From positions 1 to 37,963 of the forward strand of contig CAIOZW010000163.1 in NCBI GenBank assembly GCA_903862855.1: 37,963 nt of DNA, written 5' to 3'. A model generated the notes under the pieces. The model made no database searches. It was not told the DNA's origin and saw only the letters and a program-made list of their open reading frames with translations. Position numbers and translations under genes: made by a program. This stretch comes from an uncultured Acidobacteriota bacterium (GTDB lineage Bacteria; Acidobacteriota; Blastocatellia; RBC074). Positions 2,861 through 11,297 of the stretch are shown here, piece by piece (position 1 is the stretch's first letter; each line of letters opens with the position of its first letter).

Positions 2861-3661
2861 ATGCGCACTCTTAAATTGACCCTTGAATATGACGGCACCC
2901 GCTACAGTGGGTGGCAGGCTCAGTCCAATGCCAGGACCGTCGCGGGGACACTCCAGCAGGCAGCTGAAGAGTTCTTCGAGAGGCCGGTCGAGCTTGGAGG
3001 AGCCGGCCGGACCGATGCCGGCGTCCACGCTCTCGCCCAGGTCGCCCACCTCAAATTTCCACGCTGGGGCAGTTCACCTCCTGCCTTGAGGCAGCGCATC
3101 GAACGGCTTCGTCCCCGCGAGATCGTGCACGGGCTCAACGACCGGCTGCCTGCCGACATCAATCTGCTCGAGGCGGCCGATGCCGCACCCAATTTCCACG
3201 CCCGGCACGATGCCCTGCTCCGCAGCTACATCTACCGGATCTCGCTGCGCCGCACCGCCTTCGACAAGAAGTACGTCTGGTGGATCAAGGACCGGCTCGA
3301 TCTGGCAAGAATGGCTGAGGCGGCAACCCATCTGCCAGGACTACACGACTTCTCGGCCTTCAGTGAGTTCGACCAGCGTCGCGCCGACTTGTCACCACTG
3401 GTCAAAGTGGAGGAGACACAACTGACTCGCGAAGAGCATCTGCTGATCTTCCGGATCAGTGCCTCCCACTTTCTCTGGAAGATGGTCCGGCGACTCGTCG
3501 GTTCACTGGTCGAGATTGGGCGCGGAAATGCCTCGATCGACGACTTGACTGCCCTGCTTACAGAGCCCTTGGCAAGCAAACCCGGCGGCCGGCTCGACCC
3601 GGCGCGGGTCACGGCTCCGCCATCAGGCCTCTTTCTGGAGGAGATCGTCTACCGGCCATGA
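2861..3661 (+). CDS. truA: tRNA pseudouridine(38-40) synthase TruA
   Basis: 266 residues, the usual TruA length. The protein isomerises uridines 38-40 in the tRNA anticodon arm to pseudouridine. The family's catalytic motif GRTDAGVHA is at about residues 49-57, with nucleophile Asp52. An N-terminal EYDGTRYSGWQ strand and a later RSYIYRI segment (active-site Tyr region) are typical. No clear Shine-Dalgarno sequence precedes the ATG. The stop overlaps the start of queG by 4 bp (ATGA), so the two tRNA-modification genes are almost certainly translated from one message. Confidence 0.96.
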   Translation: MRTLKLTLEYDGTRYSGWQAQSNARTVAGTLQQAAEEFFERPVELGGAGRTDAGVHALAQVAHLKFPRWGSSPPALRQRIERLRPREIVHGLNDRLPADINLLEAADAAPNFHARHDALLRSYIYRISLRRTAFDKKYVWWIKDRLDLARMAEAATHLPGLHDFSAFSEFDQRRADLSPLVKVEETQLTREEHLLIFRISASHFLWKMVRRLVGSLVEIGRGNASIDDLTALLTEPLASKPGGRLDPARVTAPPSGLFLEEIVYRP

Positions 3662-4590
3662 GTTCGATCAGCTCGCGTGAGATCAAGGAGCAGGCCCGGT
3701 CTCTCGGCTTCGACCCGGTCGGTATCGTGCCAGCCGAGGTTCTGACCACCGAGGGCGAGCGTCTGCGTCAATGGCTCGGGCGAAACCTTCACGGGGAGAT
3801 GGACTATCTCAGCCGCCACGCGGAGATGCGAACCGATCCCCGTCAACTGATGCCTGGCGCTCGCTCGATCGTTTGTGTCGCCCTCAACTACTATCGCCCT
3901 GACAAGCACTCGGACGACCCCGAGATCGGAAAGATTTCACGATATGCCTGGGGCGACGACTACCACGATCTTCTGCGTGACAAGCTGAAACGACTACTGG
4001 CGTGGATAAGGGAACGCGATCCGCAGGTAGAGGGCCGCGCCTGTGTCGACTCGGCACCAATCATGGACAAGGCCTGGGCCGTTCGCGCTGGTCTCGGCTG
4101 GCTTGGCAAACATACCAACGTCATCACCCGCCAGTACGGCTCGTGGGTCTTCCTTGGCGAGCTGTTGCTCTCGATCGACCTCGAGTATGACAGCTTGATC
4201 GAACCGGATCACTGTGGCAAATGTACTGCTTGCCTCGATGCCTGCCCGACCGGGGCACTCACCGCCCCCTACCAGATCGACGCGACCCGCTGCATCTCCT
4301 ATGGGACGATCGAACTTCGCGCAGAGACTCTGCCTGAACCAATCGCCAGCAATCTCCAGAACTGGATCTTCGGATGCGACATCTGTCAGGATGTCTGCCC
4401 CTGGTCAAGGTTCTCGAAGCCAACCGACGAAGAGGGCTTTACGCCGCGGCCGGGTATCACGAGCCCTCGTCTCGATGAGCTGGCCGAGATCTCTCCAGAT
4501 GAGTTCTCGACACGCTTTCGTCGCAGTGCGATCAAAAGAACCCGGGTAACCGGACTCCGCCGCAATGCCCGCACCGCACGCCGTCGATGA
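3658..4590 (+). CDS. queG: Epoxyqueuosine reductase QueG
   Basis: 310 residues. QueG is a cobalamin-dependent, two-[4Fe-4S] enzyme that carries out the last step of queuosine biosynthesis, reducing epoxyqueuosine to queuosine in tRNA. The N-terminal domain (about 1-175) contains CVDSAPIMDKAWA (129-141), including the conserved acidic residue at 131. Ferredoxin-like cysteines are C186, C189, C192, C196 and C240, C243, C247, with C212 in RCISY. The protein stops soon after the FRRSAIKR segment, so it lacks the C-terminal HEAT-like extension found in longer QueG proteins such as that of E. coli; shorter forms are known. It overlaps truA by 4 bp. The basic tail (residues 297-310, many Arg) is slightly unusual. 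Confidence 0.95.
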   Translation: MSSISSREIKEQARSLGFDPVGIVPAEVLTTEGERLRQWLGRNLHGEMDYLSRHAEMRTDPRQLMPGARSIVCVALNYYRPDKHSDDPEIGKISRYAWGDDYHDLLRDKLKRLLAWIRERDPQVEGRACVDSAPIMDKAWAVRAGLGWLGKHTNVITRQYGSWVFLGELLLSIDLEYDSLIEPDHCGKCTACLDACPTGALTAPYQIDATRCISYGTIELRAETLPEPIASNLQNWIFGCDICQDVCPWSRFSKPTDEEGFTPRPGITSPRLDELAEISPDEFSTRFRRSAIKRTRVTGLRRNARTARRR

Positions 4591-4888
4591 TCTCTGACCG
4601 GCTGAAGATCCGGGTCTTCCATCCACCTGTCGCAAATGTTTGAATGCCATTGATTCCACGCCTGACCCTCAATACTCCCCTGACCGGTTTCATTATTTCT
4701 TTCTTGTCTTTCAGTACTTTGTGATACCCTCATCCCAGCTTGATCATTGATATCTCTGACAAAGAAAAATGTGCCGGGAAATTTTCTGGAAAATTGGCTC
4801 AAGGTCACTGATTGCGTTACACACACAATTTAGAGAGCGGTCAAATGACTCGGTCAGAGTCTCTGACAAGACTCTCGGGAGAGAACGT
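4591..4888. other. Intergenic region before the zinc-ribbon kinase-like gene
   Basis: About 300 bp between the queG stop and the preferred kinase-like start. The reading frame of the downstream gene is open back to an ATG at 4769, but that extension (40 codons) shows no recognisable domain and has no ribosome site, so I treat it as leader. It is more AT-rich than its neighbours around 4690-4830, so a promoter is likely there, but I cannot point to a convincing -35/-10 pair. No terminator-like hairpin is seen. Confidence 0.5.
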
Positions 4889-5863
4889 ATGACAACATAC
4901 GATTCAGACAATACTGTTCGAGAATGCATATCCTGCCAGCGTTGCTACTCGTCGAACCGGTCGATCTGTCTTCACTGTCAGATTGAACTGCGCCCTGTTG
5001 AGACAGTTCCAAACATCATCAACTACCGTTATCAGTTGACCAATGTGCTCAGCCACGGTGGGACAGGACATAGCTTTCTCGCGTTTGACGACAACCAGCA
5101 GCAGGTCGTCGTCCGCATAATCAGGGCCAGCGCACTCGCCGACCCTCGCGCACTCGACCGCTTTCGACGCGAGGCCAATATGGCCTGTCACTTTCACCAT
5201 CCCAATGTCGCAAGCATTATCGATTGCGGCATGTTACCTGATGCAAGCGGCTATCTGGTTAGTGATTACATCGAGGGACCGACTCTGCGGGAGGTATTAC
5301 AGCGACGTGGAAGGCTGACGATCAGGGAGGCAGTCCTGATCCTGGTCGATCTCTGCGACGCCCTCGACGCAGTTCATCGCGCCGGGCTGCTCCATCGTGA
5401 CCTGAAACCGGAGAGCATTATCATTCGTTACCTGCCGGATCTGCCCGATCCGATCATCCGCCTGGTCGGTTTCAGCTTTACCCGCATCGCCTTTGGCCGC
5501 CTCTACCGACCAGGAGCAACGGGACGACTGCAGGAGCAGGGTTTCCTGCCACTTTCTCCAGTCTACCTCAGCCCGGAGCAGTTCAGTGGTGAAGAGAGCG
5601 ATGTTCGCTCTGACATCTACAGCATAGGAGTGATCGGGTATGAGATGCTGACCGGTCACCCACCATTCATCTCGGAACGTACCGAGGATCTTCTCCTCCG
5701 CCACCTGTCCGAAAAACCAGCCCCACTCCGTTCACTCAACCCAGCCATCGAGGCCAGTCTTGAGTCTGAGATCCTGCGTGCCCTCGAAAAGGATCCTTTC
5801 ATGCGCCATCAGCGGGCCATCGAGCTGAAACGCGAGCTGGTCAACGTCGGACACCTGCTCTGA
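4889..5863 (+). CDS. Zinc-ribbon protein kinase homologue, probable pseudokinase
   Basis: 324 residues from the ATG at 4889, chosen because GGGAG lies about 7 bp upstream. An N-terminal Cys cluster (C13, C16, C19, C27, C30) suggests a zinc ribbon. A Hanks-type Ser/Thr kinase fold follows (about 46-320). Several landmarks are intact: helix-C Glu95, HRD at 169-171, Lys173, SPEQ at 228-231 and DIYSIG at 242-247. Others are not: the beta-3 lysine (VAIK) is Arg76 in VVVRII, the glycine loop is altered (LSHGGTG), the catalytic-loop Asn is Ser176, and DFG is replaced by GFS at 194-196. Loss of both metal ligands and the ATP lysine predicts weak or absent phosphotransfer. No transmembrane segment or C-terminal sensor is visible, so it should be cytoplasmic. 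Its stop is 5 bp from the stop of the convergent gene. Fold assignment is firm; the pseudokinase call is inference from residues. Confidence 0.88.
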   Translation: MTTYDSDNTVRECISCQRCYSSNRSICLHCQIELRPVETVPNIINYRYQLTNVLSHGGTGHSFLAFDDNQQQVVVRIIRASALADPRALDRFRREANMACHFHHPNVASIIDCGMLPDASGYLVSDYIEGPTLREVLQRRGRLTIREAVLILVDLCDALDAVHRAGLLHRDLKPESIIIRYLPDLPDPIIRLVGFSFTRIAFGRLYRPGATGRLQEQGFLPLSPVYLSPEQFSGEESDVRSDIYSIGVIGYEMLTGHPPFISERTEDLLLRHLSEKPAPLRSLNPAIEASLESEILRALEKDPFMRHQRAIELKRELVNVGHLL

Positions 5864-5868
5864 TCGTC

Positions 5869-8800
5869 TCAAAGCTGGATATTGACCCGCAGAATCCCAC
5901 TCGTCGTTGCGGGTGGCAGACCATTGTCCGTTACCGAAAAGGTGATGGTGTGGGATCCAATCTGGCTCGTCGTCGGCTTCCAGGAGATAACTCCTGCTCC
6001 AGGCTGCGTCTGGTTGAAAGACACTCCCGATGGAAGCTGGCCGGTTGTGATCCGCAAGGTCTGATCGGGCTCGACATCGGTGGCCCGTATCTCCATCACA
6101 AATGAGGTCCCATAACGGAAAGTCACCTCTTCTGGGAGCATCAGAACGGGTGGATCATTGACTGGAGCGATGACGATGGTCACTGTCGCCAGTTCACTCG
6201 TCCCCTGACCATCTGAAGCGCGATAAGTGAAGAGATCTGAACCAAAATAGTTTGCCCTCGGACTATAGATCAGGTTATTACCATTGCCGCTCAACGTCCC
6301 ATTGGATGGCGAGGACTCGACAATAAAGTTGAGCTGATCACCCTGGTCAATATCGAATGCTTCAAGCGTGATCGAAAGGTTCGTATCCTCAGTTCCACTT
6401 AAATTGAGATTAAAAACCTGCGGGAGCTGGTTCAGGTTGAGAACCTGAAGGCTGATAGTCAGACTTGAGGTTGCTCCAAGGTTATCAACGGCATTGACAA
6501 CGATACTGTATGTTCCAGCATCCATCAGACCTGGAGCCAGTCTGATGGCATATGTTTTAGAGTTTGTGGTGGATGGTCTGACAAGAGTCGCGAATGGTGG
6601 CCCCTGAATACTCAGGTTGACTGTCTGATTCTGATCAGGATCAGAGACGATCAGCGTATGATTGACGACCGAATTCTCGACCATCGAGAGTCGTGTTGAA
6701 GCAATAATGCCCGGTGGACGGTTCGTCTTCTGATCAGGCAGACGTGTCAATGGAACAAGAGTGATTCCACCCGGAACGGCAGTGCCTTCGGCGCTGGTTG
6801 CTCGATCAACCCTTCCTCCGGGGCGCTGCAGACTGATCTCTACCTTTACTTTATCTGACAACCAGGCTGGCACAGAACGAATCGCAAAACTGCCCGTCCC
6901 ATCGGTCGTCGACTGCTGACCGCGGAAGTTTGCCAATGCACCGCGGACAGGGGTGGTTCCGTCACTCTCGACGACACGACCAACTATTGTCGTAGTCTGT
7001 CTCAAGTTGGCGACGAAATAGGCACTGGTGATCTTGATGGCATTGAGCCCTGTCTCGATCGACCGCCCATCGGGGGTAACCACTGCTTCAGTCGATTCGG
7101 GAAGAAACGTCCCATCAGTATCGTTGAAACGGAAGAGAGTCAGTTTCGTTCCCGGAGCAAGAGCGTCCGTGTTCGGAAAGGTAAGTTTGGCCCCCGGCTC
7201 GATTCGAACATTGAATGGAGTTATCTGAACGATGGTTGGACTGTAGTAGCCGTAAGGCAGCGAGACAAACGTGCGTGCCCCCTCAAGTTTCGTCAACCAG
7301 ATGCGCCCTCCATACTGTCCGTTCGGGAAGGTGGCACTTGCCCCGGGCTGGACTTGAAGCTGCACATTGTCCGTCTGAATGATCGTCGATGCCTGCTCAG
7401 GTGAATTTTCGCGCAAGGGATCAATGTTATCCGGCACCGGAACCACGGTACCGGATGTTCCGATGGTCGCACTTGAACCCGTCGCCTGCTGAATGGCAAT
7501 TGTCTTTTGAAACGGGTTGTCACGATTGCCATAGGCGATGGTCTTGAGGGTCACGAGAGGAAATGGCGGTGAGGCATTGAGCAATCCACCATCGATCTCG
7601 ACGAGATGAACACCCGGTACCACATCGGCAAGGACAAAGGTTCCATCCTCGCTGGTCGTCGCCTTGATCGTCGTCCCGGATAGGCGGACGGTCAGGCCGA
7701 TGATCGGATTGCGCAAGGTGTCCTCGACGATGCCGCTGATGGAGGTTCGCACATTGAGTACCGTTGAGCTCGATCCCTCACCAGACTGATTCTTTACCTG
7801 CACGACACCGCTCGAGACCCCATACGGGACGACCACTTTCAACTGGGAGGCGGTCGCTGTGACCACTTCAGCCTCCTTCCCTGAAATGCGGACAATATTT
7901 TCACTGAGATTGGCGGAGAATCCGCTGCCATTGATCTGCAACTGCTGCCCGGCAAGAGTAGTTGCAGCGTCAAAACCACTTACAATCGGGCCACTGATTC
8001 CGGCGCTGGTAACGATCCCGCCCACTTCGATCTCGACCGGGTTTGAGCTCTGAGCATTGGCGACGGCCACAGTCAGGTTGACAAGCCCCCGGCCCAGAAG
8101 ATCACGGGGAATTTCAGCGTTGACCTGATCCAGACCGAGAAATTCAGGTTGCCGACCGGCGTAGAGTGGGGTCAGCACAGATCCACCCACGAGAAGGCTG
8201 ACCGATTCATTGAGATTGCCATCGCCATTGGTGTCGGTCGCCCCGCGCAGACCAGAGAGAAAGAGGACCAGAAATACCCTCTCCCCGACAGGGCCGAGGT
8301 CGATCGGTCGGGTAATGAACTGACTGGTCTGCTGATTGAAATCAGCGACCGGCTCATAGCTCTGGGTACCATCTGTCCTGACCCGAATAATGAAGGCGGC
8401 GGCAGCACCACGCCCGGACGAGTTGGCCGTAAATACTCCCGGAGCGACACGGGCCACACTGACCGTCCCGTTGGAGACGGTTCCGCTTGCCGCACGGATG
8501 ATCACAGGAACCAGACCGGGCGTGGTGGTCGCCGGAACGATATAGTTGATCTGGCCCGGCGAGACAAAGAGGATCTCGGCAAGCTTGCCCCCCACCTCGA
8601 CCGTTGAACCGCCGAGGGAGGTCGGAAGCTGGATACCAGCCTTGGCGGTATCGAGATCGCTCGCTACAACCGTCTGATTGGCCAGACTTGCTCCGAAAGC
8701 GGCGACAATCGAATCCGGCGCAACAGGCGTCGTCTCAAAACTGGCCGCGGAGACCGTTGTGACGGGTGTGGTCGTCACCTGAAGAGCTCCTTCAGCAACA

Positions 8801-8997
8801 TCACCCGACCAGACAAGGCTCAGGATGGTGGTAGCCATGACCAGCACCGCAAGCAGAGAGAGCCGACCAGTCGATATTGAATCACGGAGCGCGTGAGAGA
8901 TCAGACCAGGCTGCCCGAACTTGTCTCCGATCTTCAATCTCAATATCGAGCGGGATCGACCAGAGGCGGTCCGGGGTATGAATGAGCGAATTGGCAT
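5869..8997 (-). CDS. Secreted multidomain protein: TIGR03437, IPT/TIG, carboxypeptidase-regulatory-like and cadherin-like repeats
   Basis: 1042 residues from the ATG at 8997, preferred because GGAGG lies a few bases upstream; a second in-frame ATG at 9018 has no such site. A long N-region precedes a hydrophobic stretch (about 45-70), probably an export signal. Residues about 83-325 match the Solibacter TIGR03437 domain (VSPGQINYIVP at 146-156, LGLDQVNAEIP at 287-297). An IPT/TIG fold follows (about 333-420), then a carboxypeptidase-regulatory-like domain starting ISGIVED, a ZU5-like region rich in turns (about 540-665), another regulatory-like domain starting IVGRVVE, and three tandem Ig/cadherin-like repeats of about 100 residues to the end. 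It is likely cell-surface or extracellular and adhesive. It lies downstream of nfo in the same direction and tail-to-tail with the pseudokinase. Confidence 0.88.
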   Translation of the reverse strand: MPIRSFIPRTASGRSRSILRLKIGDKFGQPGLISHALRDSISTGRLSLLAVLVMATTILSLVWSGDVAEGALQVTTTPVTTVSAASFETTPVAPDSIVAAFGASLANQTVVASDLDTAKAGIQLPTSLGGSTVEVGGKLAEILFVSPGQINYIVPATTTPGLVPVIIRAASGTVSNGTVSVARVAPGVFTANSSGRGAAAAFIIRVRTDGTQSYEPVADFNQQTSQFITRPIDLGPVGERVFLVLFLSGLRGATDTNGDGNLNESVSLLVGGSVLTPLYAGRQPEFLGLDQVNAEIPRDLLGRGLVNLTVAVANAQSSNPVEIEVGGIVTSAGISGPIVSGFDAATTLAGQQLQINGSGFSANLSENIVRISGKEAEVVTATASQLKVVVPYGVSSGVVQVKNQSGEGSSSTVLNVRTSISGIVEDTLRNPIIGLTVRLSGTTIKATTSEDGTFVLADVVPGVHLVEIDGGLLNASPPFPLVTLKTIAYGNRDNPFQKTIAIQQATGSSATIGTSGTVVPVPDNIDPLRENSPEQASTIIQTDNVQLQVQPGASATFPNGQYGGRIWLTKLEGARTFVSLPYGYYSPTIVQITPFNVRIEPGAKLTFPNTDALAPGTKLTLFRFNDTDGTFLPESTEAVVTPDGRSIETGLNAIKITSAYFVANLRQTTTIVGRVVESDGTTPVRGALANFRGQQSTTDGTGSFAIRSVPAWLSDKVKVEISLQRPGGRVDRATSAEGTAVPGGITLVPLTRLPDQKTNRPPGIIASTRLSMVENSVVNHTLIVSDPDQNQTVNLSIQGPPFATLVRPSTTNSKTYAIRLAPGLMDAGTYSIVVNAVDNLGATSSLTISLQVLNLNQLPQVFNLNLSGTEDTNLSITLEAFDIDQGDQLNFIVESSPSNGTLSGNGNNLIYSPRANYFGSDLFTYRASDGQGTSELATVTIVIAPVNDPPVLMLPEEVTFRYGTSFVMEIRATDVEPDQTLRITTGQLPSGVSFNQTQPGAGVISWKPTTSQIGSHTITFSVTDNGLPPATTSGILRVNIQL

Positions 8998-9050
8998 ATG
9001 GCCTCCACGTTTTGGCAACTCATCACCTGACGATGAGTGGTCGGCAATTT

Positions 9051-9959: not shown

Positions 9960-11297
9960 TCAATCTCCCAACACCCAGCGTAGGGTAAATTCATAACGTC
10001 GACTGCCATTCTTTCTTGAATCATCGAGCCTCACGATCGCCACATAGCCATTCTCAGACGACGGGATCTGGGTTACACGAATCTCTTCTCCGGACTGGCC
10101 ACCCGGCTGGGCGGCGATGAGTGAAAGACGGACATCTGACCGGGGAATTGGCGCACTGAATGAGGCACGGACTGCGGTTGGATAGCTGCCGCTGAGATGG
10201 CGAATTTCGGCGGTATTTCCGGTGAGAAGAATATCGGCAACCCCATCGACAATCCCACTCCAGGCAATGCTGCCAGTCCGCAGAAAAGGCAGCTCACGCC
10301 GCACGACAGCCGACGGACGGGAGCGCTCTGACTCCTGCCGCCGCTCCTCCTCGCGTCGACGAAGATCCTCTTCGGCCTCACGTCGCAATCGCTCCTCGAT
10401 TGCCTGGCGGCGGGCAAGGTCGTCGGCCCGCTGCCGGAGCAGAGCCAGTTCACGGCGCAGACGTTCCGCCTCCCGTTCAGCCTCGGGATTGCCACCCGTG
10501 GCTGATCCCGGAACGGCTGGAGATTCGAGTGACGCCGACTGGGTGGCCTCCTGTTCCTGCAGATGCCTGCGCAGTGCGGCCTCGAGGACCCTGGCTTCGG
10601 CATCGTTGATCCGCAGCGGTGCCGCACCAGGATCAGATTTGACCGTCAGTCGATTGACAACCCTTTTTACACCACTCACCAGCCGCAGGACATTACCTGC
10701 ACCATCCTTCTCCGGCTGGTGATCGGCCTCACCCTCGAGCGTCACGACTCCTGCGACTACCTGGTATCGATACCTGGTGAATCCGAATGGATTGTAGGCC
10801 ATGAGCGTCGCCCTGATCGACTCTTCGAGCTGCTGATCCAGACCCTCCACTGCCGTTGCACCAGTTGGCGGTGGACCAGTCGGGACGACGGGTGAAGCGG
10901 ATGGTTGTGTAACCGCAGAAGCTGTCGCTTGTGAAGGAAGGTTGAAGATCTGCTCGTCCCGCTTCTGCTGGCGCCAGAGCAGCCATGCGATGATGGCTCC
11001 GACAAAGATGAGCACGACACCAATAATGATCAGTGTCACCTGCGCAGAGGTGAAGCGTGGAAATCGCCGTTCGGTATCGGGAGGCGAAAGATAGATGGCT
11101 TCGGGCAGCTGTCCCTCGAGCTTTGCCGGGTCTGGATCGGTGTGCGGTGCGGGGATGGCGAGCGCGGTCGGTGCAGGAACCAGAGTCAGATCGGTCGCCT
11201 CTTCGCGCACGGTGCCACACTTCGGGCAGACTTTCATGAACGGACGAAGCGTTATTCCACATTGTGTGCAGAGCAGCGATGTTGATTCCATAGCCAT
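9960..11297 (-). CDS. Zinc-ribbon, single-TM, BON-domain and coiled-coil protein
   Basis: 445 residues, no named family recognised for the whole protein. An N-terminal zinc ribbon (C10, C13, C24, C27) is followed by a Pro-rich linker and one transmembrane helix at about 87-108. A BON-like domain (about 153-219, with VVTLEGEADH and VKRVVNRLTV) should lie across the membrane and could bind lipid or peptidoglycan. A charged Arg/Glu coiled coil (about 270-335) follows, then a C-terminal beta-rich region of about 100 residues. With the zinc ribbon cytoplasmic, the BON and coiled coil would face the periplasm; this topology is inferred. A second in-frame Met lies two codons downstream of the first, so the start could shift slightly. 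It is the first gene of the probable BON-nfo unit, 43 bp downstream of the SDR gene. Confidence 0.82.
   Translation of the reverse strand: MAMESTSLLCTQCGITLRPFMKVCPKCGTVREEATDLTLVPAPTALAIPAPHTDPDPAKLEGQLPEAIYLSPPDTERRFPRFTSAQVTLIIIGVVLIFVGAIIAWLLWRQQKRDEQIFNLPSQATASAVTQPSASPVVPTGPPPTGATAVEGLDQQLEESIRATLMAYNPFGFTRYRYQVVAGVVTLEGEADHQPEKDGAGNVLRLVSGVKRVVNRLTVKSDPGAAPLRINDAEARVLEAALRRHLQEQEATQSASLESPAVPGSATGGNPEAEREAERLRRELALLRQRADDLARRQAIEERLRREAEEDLRRREEERRQESERSRPSAVVRRELPFLRTGSIAWSGIVDGVADILLTGNTAEIRHLSGSYPTAVRASFSAPIPRSDVRLSLIAAQPGGQSGEEIRVTQIPSSENGYVAIVRLDDSRKNGSRRYEFTLRWVLGD

Follow-up and report, generated by a model that had tools for sequence, protein, structure and literature searches.

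In a stretch of 37,963 nucleotides from an uncultured acidobacterium (the window) there is a gene for a PknB-type kinase fold that follows an N-terminal five-cysteine ribbon, and in which residues of the catalytic center have been replaced. Comparison with its orthologues gives good support to a conserved, lineage-specific pseudokinase; the mechanism set out below is one that we infer.

The reading frame is uninterrupted (Table 1), and its start agrees with the orthologue starts (MTTYDSDNTVREC / MPAYDPTDTVREC), so that the ATG further upstream at 4769 is not likely to be the start. A scan for promoters and terminators gave nothing exceeding chance. The product passes the gathering threshold of Pfam Pkinase (PF00069), which is 31.7 bits, with a score of 99.6 bits, retains the SPEQ and DIYS motifs, and ends after the kinase domain with no fusion partner domain. 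The PASTA Ser/Thr kinase family NF033483 matches only residues 41-319, with 219 bits against a cut-off of 450, and there are no PASTA domains; we have therefore rejected membership of that family. Modeling of the structure had been proposed in a reading of this DNA from its letters alone (the sequence-only reading). The AlphaFold2 model, calculated from a six-sequence alignment, has a pLDDT of 80 and a pTM of 0.80, with a poorly determined activation loop (pLDDT below 50). Its top matches in the PDB are structures of M. tuberculosis PknB, with a TM-score to the target of about 0.8-0.9, and PknB is also the nearest solved structure by sequence, with 32-33% identity.

Table 1. Positions of the pseudokinase gene, its motifs and its neighbors in the window.
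Feature	Positions	Strand	Basis or context
Zinc-ribbon pseudokinase ORF, 324 aa	4889..5863	+	Open frame, orthologue comparison, Pfam match, codon check, AlphaFold2 model
GGGAGAG, Shine-Dalgarno-like, 5 nt ahead of ATG	4877..4883	+	Sequence; putative
Five-cysteine ribbon (C13, C16, C19, C27, C30)	4925..4978	+	All five Cys in 8/8 orthologues with N-terminus
R76 (CGC) at beta-3 Lys site, private to window genome	5114..5116	+	Codon check
Beta3-alphaC entry RASALADPRA (residues 79-88), strongly conserved in orthogroup	5123..5152	+	
HRD (169-171), catalytic Asp retained 9/9	5393..5401	+	Orthologue alignment, codons
S176 at Mg-binding Asn site; S/G/C in 8/9 orthologues	5414..5416	+	Orthologue alignment, codons
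GFS (194-196) at DFG; GFS x7, NFS x1, DFS x1	5468..5476	+	Orthologue alignment, codons
Altered activation segment, GxxFxPGTTxxLQxxGQLPLRPTYLSPEQF in orthogroup, vs GTPxYMSPEQ	5483..5584	+	
queG	3658..4590	+	Upstream neighbor of pseudokinase
truA, part of common HerA-truA-queG neighborhood	2861..3661	+	ORF list, synteny
Convergent TIGR03437/Ig/cadherin-repeat protein	5869..9018	-	Directly downstream

Codons read in the DNA are CGC for R76, GAG for E95, GAC for D171 of HRD, AAA for K173, AGC for S176 and GGT TTC AGC for G194-F195-S196. Together with the Pfam score these bear out the triple substitution of Arg76, Ser176 and GFS on a kept kinase fold that the sequence-only reading had described. 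A pseudokinase is defined by sequence as lacking at least one of the beta-3 Lys, the HRD Asp and the DFG Asp (PMC12599244), and the window protein falls within this definition by virtue of R76 and G194. Its Gly-loop, SHGGTG, has in addition lost the first glycine.

Motifs could be scored in nine orthologues, comprising the window protein and those of eight other genomes, the fragment from G009 being excluded. The DFG Asp is substituted in eight of the nine, the single DFS being that of G002, and the DFG Gly is Ser in all nine. At the catalytic-loop Asn position, replaced in 8/9, there is Ser in six, Gly in one, Cys in one (G004) and Asn in one; the last is again G002, which thus retains both metal ligands. 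The HRD Asp, the alphaC Glu and K173 are invariant. The beta-3 Lys is present in 8/9, including the same-genus relative, with Arg in the window protein alone. As Lys is kept in all relatives K76R is private, and the losses of metal ligands are older and common to the orthologues. The Gly-loop is intact (GRGATG) in G006 and G008; that of G002 is damaged, and in G005, where the sequence reads SVAA, it is absent. A gatekeeper-like Met is changed to Ser in seven of the nine, and the P+1 'GT' to 'LR' in most. These last two changes, and the losses of the DFG Gly and of the first loop glycine, had been overlooked by the sequence-only reading. It had also named the protein by its lack of the ATP lysine and described the residues as substituted 'at once'. 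Lack of the Lys is no mark of the family, since every relative keeps it, and G002, with Asn and DFS, shows that the losses were not simultaneous. Hence we reject a single simultaneous loss. Homologues with intact motifs were to count against the proposal; the Lys is intact in all relatives, and among the orthologues Asn with the DFG Asp is found in G002 only.

Orthologues occur in 10 of the 11 genomes of the window's family, the window genome included and one of them fragmentary, as found by searching first 58 genomes (own and relatives) and then all 11 of the same family. They are full-length, with 45-55% identity, in G001, G002, G003, G004, G005, G006 and G008; that of G010 is truncated by the contig edge before residue 41, and that of G009 is a contig-edge fragment of residues 1-130. 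G007, which is 88% complete, is the only family member in which no orthologue was found. When 396 Acidobacteriota genomes from 211 genera were searched with a profile, orthologue-level scores came from the family alone, and no score lay between 521 and 285 bits; scoring covered the five top candidates of each genome, so that distant members could be missed. As judged by these sequence searches, the substitutions are limited to one family and not spread over the Acidobacteriota. Of the three substitutions whose conservation was to be checked across the phylum, GFS (seven of nine) and Ser (six of nine) recur within the family, and Arg does not.

The ribbon has the five cysteines noted in the sequence-only reading, spaced CX2CX2CX7CX2C, in line with the zinc-ribbon pattern of at least four Cys in CX2C...CX2C. 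The Pfam scan matched no named zinc-ribbon family; only zf-C2H2_11 appeared, below the cut-off with E=0.25. The active zinc-ribbon kinases of the Acidobacteriota have the ribbon in the same position and a kinase domain, with about 33-40% identity. They differ from the pseudokinase in having VAIK, HRD, N and DFG intact wherever scorable (a few rows are poorly aligned), and usually much longer open frames. Their ribbons mostly have three Cys and an Asp, of the form CX2C...CX2D, and 13 of the 19 active paralogues have Asp where the pseudokinase has C30. The pseudokinase owes its ribbon to active zinc-ribbon kinases, and the conversion of that ribbon to an all-Cys, five-Cys form is the special feature. 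C30 in place of Asp is fixed or near-fixed in the orthogroup and different in the active kinases, as are the Ser at the gatekeeper-like position and LR at P+1. Chance is excluded, as the substitutions turn up again in divergent orthologues and the motifs are intact in the active paralogues that we compared.

The window genome has 11 Pkinase hits, of which nine are apparently intact, one is the pseudokinase and one is a second degenerate protein. The latter lies on another contig of the genome (C81; L070 2-1585, minus strand) and consists of a C-lobe only, with a catalytic loop HGAICPAN that has no HRD Asp, no DFG, and SPEQ present; after it come what is probably a transmembrane segment and TPR-like repeats. 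Both genomes of the window's genus (G000, G001) have 11 kinase hits, compared with at least 39 in other family members, and the genus keeps the pseudokinase despite this low number.

The orthogroup is monophyletic among zinc-ribbon kinases (support 100/100), on a long stem of 1.1-1.4 changes per column. The tree places G002 with G005, but a tree in which G002 branches first is not rejected by an AU test (p=0.30). On these sequences G002 may have reverted, the loss may have happened more than once, or a single loss may have followed the split from G002. dN/dS is 0.04 for G006/G010 and 0.11-0.12 for G006/G008 and G008/G010, where dS is 0.7-1.0 among these three closest members and saturated for most other pairs. 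The pseudokinase evolves faster than its neighbors, with 82-94% identity against 93-96% for gyrB among the same three genomes. We compared column entropy in the orthogroup (n=9) with that in 19 active paralogues, contrasts that are relative in that the orthologue set is small and less divergent. Constraint is relaxed at the Gly-loop (+0.80 bits, p=0.0001) and DFG (+0.61, p=0.006), and tightened in the activation segment (-0.55, p=0.004) and at the alphaC entry (-1.21, p below 1e-4); the entropy of the ribbon is also lower. Tightening at alphaG was not significant (p=0.19), and we have discarded it as a docking hot spot.

Upstream of the pseudokinase lie HerA, truA and queG in the window, G001 and G003, truA (2861..3661, forward strand) being named from its sequence. 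In G001, of the same genus, queG and the pseudokinase start overlap by ATGA. In genus g5 the pseudokinase precedes genes that we take from their sequences to be recF and gyrB, and in G008 it ends 3 nt before recF. From this overlap and this spacing the pseudokinase is evidently translated. Neighbors vary by subclade (queG or recF), and none is constant such as to name a partner. The convergent protein directly downstream, with TIGR03437 (Soli_cterm) and Ig/cadherin-like repeats, is predicted to be secreted; a protein of this type is found downstream in 6/9 genomes, the copy in G005 being assigned by visual inspection of its C-terminus. In the window this protein has 1049 aa, compared with 1532-1674 aa for the copies that adjoin the pseudokinase in G002, G003 and G004. 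Given 23-74 hits to this family per genome in the window's family, the opposite strand and the lack of adjacency in g5 genomes, we reject a functional link and treat the adjacency as inherited synteny. Further along the window, 9960-11297 on the minus strand encodes a protein with a zinc ribbon, a transmembrane part (judged by eye) and a BON domain.

The loss of metal ligands and the relaxed nucleotide site, with a tightened activation face and ribbon under purifying selection, fit a pseudokinase in which binding has been kept. We consider it probable, reasoning from sequence comparison, that the protein is a pseudokinase specific to this lineage, which has been retained for binding or allosteric regulation and not for catalysis. 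Its ancestor, a PknB-like Ser/Thr kinase with a zinc ribbon, would have split off at the root of a single acidobacterial family. All members have lost the DFG Gly, and nearly all have lost the two residues that bind Mg2+ (Asn and the DFG Asp); the product would have been kept as a stand-alone soluble protein. Such a protein should not carry out Mg-dependent phosphotransfer. Its most likely route of action would be docking through the activation-segment/alphaC face and the ribbon onto a partner, putatively an active paralogous kinase or the substrate of that kinase, which would be modulated allosterically or competitively in a mode that might be likened to STRAD or MviN. Most members keep HRD and the Lys-Glu pair, which could permit metal-independent nucleotide binding; in the window protein K76R probably weakens such binding further. 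A scaffold or sensor role, suggested in the sequence-only reading for the ribbon protein, is likewise something that we infer. Some observations sit uneasily with a non-catalytic module: the gene neighbors are not the same in all subclades, the invariant alphaC Glu, HRD Asp and K173, with the beta-3 Lys in 8/9, are more than a pure scaffold needs, and G002 keeps Asn and Asp.

The three invariant residues and the beta-3 Lys speak for the main rival, a residual kinase of the CASK type, metal-independent or Mn-dependent and making slow transfer to a specialized substrate by means of Lys, the HRD Asp and the Gly-loop, which we think unlikely. The Cys of G004 at the Asn position is the residue of CASK too, and the intact loops of G006 and G008 point the same way. 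CASK is active without the DFG Asp (PMC2639636, PMC4718504), and in plants ILK1, which carries GFG, shows activity with Mn2+ (PMC9403797). Against this, the Gly-loop is relaxed, being lost in G005 and damaged in G002, the P+1 'GT' is gone and the DFG Gly is Ser, and the window protein in addition carries R76 and lacks the first glycine of the loop. On its residues the window protein looks to be one of those with the least prospect of activity, and more STRAD-like with R76 and its damaged loop; CASK-like activity would be likeliest in G006 and G008, where the Gly-loop is intact. The stronger proposal of a bacterial counterpart to CASK, which would have given up both Mg2+ ligands, kept Lys, HRD and in some members the Gly-loop, and phosphorylate a dedicated target without divalent metal, with G002 as a near-ancestral intermediate, we hold to be improbable. 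A nucleotide-responsive sensor, binding ATP, ADP or another nucleotide without catalysis and signaling through the ribbon, seems to us improbable as well, if anything a little more so: the retained Lys-Glu pair and HRD would suit it, and pseudokinases of the STRAD type bind ATP while inactive (PMC2639636), but the Gly-loop is relaxed and in G005 absent, and the gatekeeper-like position is altered. There is precedent among bacterial pseudokinases (PMC12599244) for a kinase fold put to other chemistry, AMPylation or glutamylation as in SelO or SidJ, and Lys and HRD are conserved here; yet SelO and SidJ retain the metal-binding Asp (DYG/DLG, PMC12599244 Table 1) that the pseudokinase has lost, and the SelO family was unmatched in the Pfam scan, making such a transferase very improbable. 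Lastly, a gene decaying toward loss could explain the private K76R and the faster evolution, but with frames intact in nine genomes, low dN/dS and new motifs invariant we give this almost no credence, and the earlier view of a kinase repurposed rather than decayed is upheld by the conserved frame, the strong purifying selection and the two metal-ligand losses held in common.

Bacterial pseudokinases have been little studied. Here there is a natural series, from the near-complete catalytic set of G002, through G006 and G008, which lack only the DFG Gly and the metal ligands, to the window protein in which the Lys is lost too; with many active paralogues it allows one to ask in what order activity was lost and which surface was retained. 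In the open-access literature searched we found no description of acidobacterial or zinc-ribbon pseudokinases. A 2025 review names the bacterial families ActPs1-3, GLW, CP1, DYD and DLHK (PMC12599244), and its text mentions neither zinc, zinc ribbons nor Acidobacteria. DLHK, CP1 and ActPs2 resemble our protein as bacterial Ser/Thr pseudokinases with a degraded DFG (PMC12599244), but by their descriptions we have rejected each. ActPs2 has Lys changed to Arg, shared by the window protein only and not by its eight relatives, HRD Asp changed to Asn, a DFG deletion and large insertions, where our pseudokinase keeps HRD and has GFS in 324 aa. DLHK has lost Lys, kept HRD and Asn, and is commonly fused to DEAD or DNA2, unlike our pseudokinase with Lys in its relatives, Asn lost and no fusion. 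CP1 has a kinase domain linked to COG3899, and ours ends after the kinase domain.

Among known kinases the resemblance is to PknB, StkP and PknA, PknB being closest by sequence and fold, with HRD, SPEQ and DIYS kept; the pseudokinase differs in the absence of the PASTA and transmembrane part, Asn, DFG and P+1 Thr, and in its extra ribbon. CASK has the motifs GKGPFS, FAVK, HRD and GFG, and an intact Gly-loop with the beta-3 Lys is reported to be the best predictor of CASK-like activity (PMC2639636, PMC4718504). Orthologues such as G006 share with it the beta-3 Lys, HRD and Gly for the DFG Asp, and the feature set is present in G006 and G008 (GRGATG, Lys, HRD, GFS), where the window protein has SHGGTG and R76. 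Unlike CASK, the pseudokinase has a relaxed Gly-loop, Ser for the DFG Gly, Arg76 in the window and an unrelated domain architecture. STRAD binds and activates an active kinase. It has VTVR at beta-3 and GLR at DFG, and binds ATP though inactive (PMC2639636). The VxVR at beta-3 and altered DFG of the window protein recall it, as a working analogy only, the pseudokinase differing from STRAD in retaining the HRD Asp.
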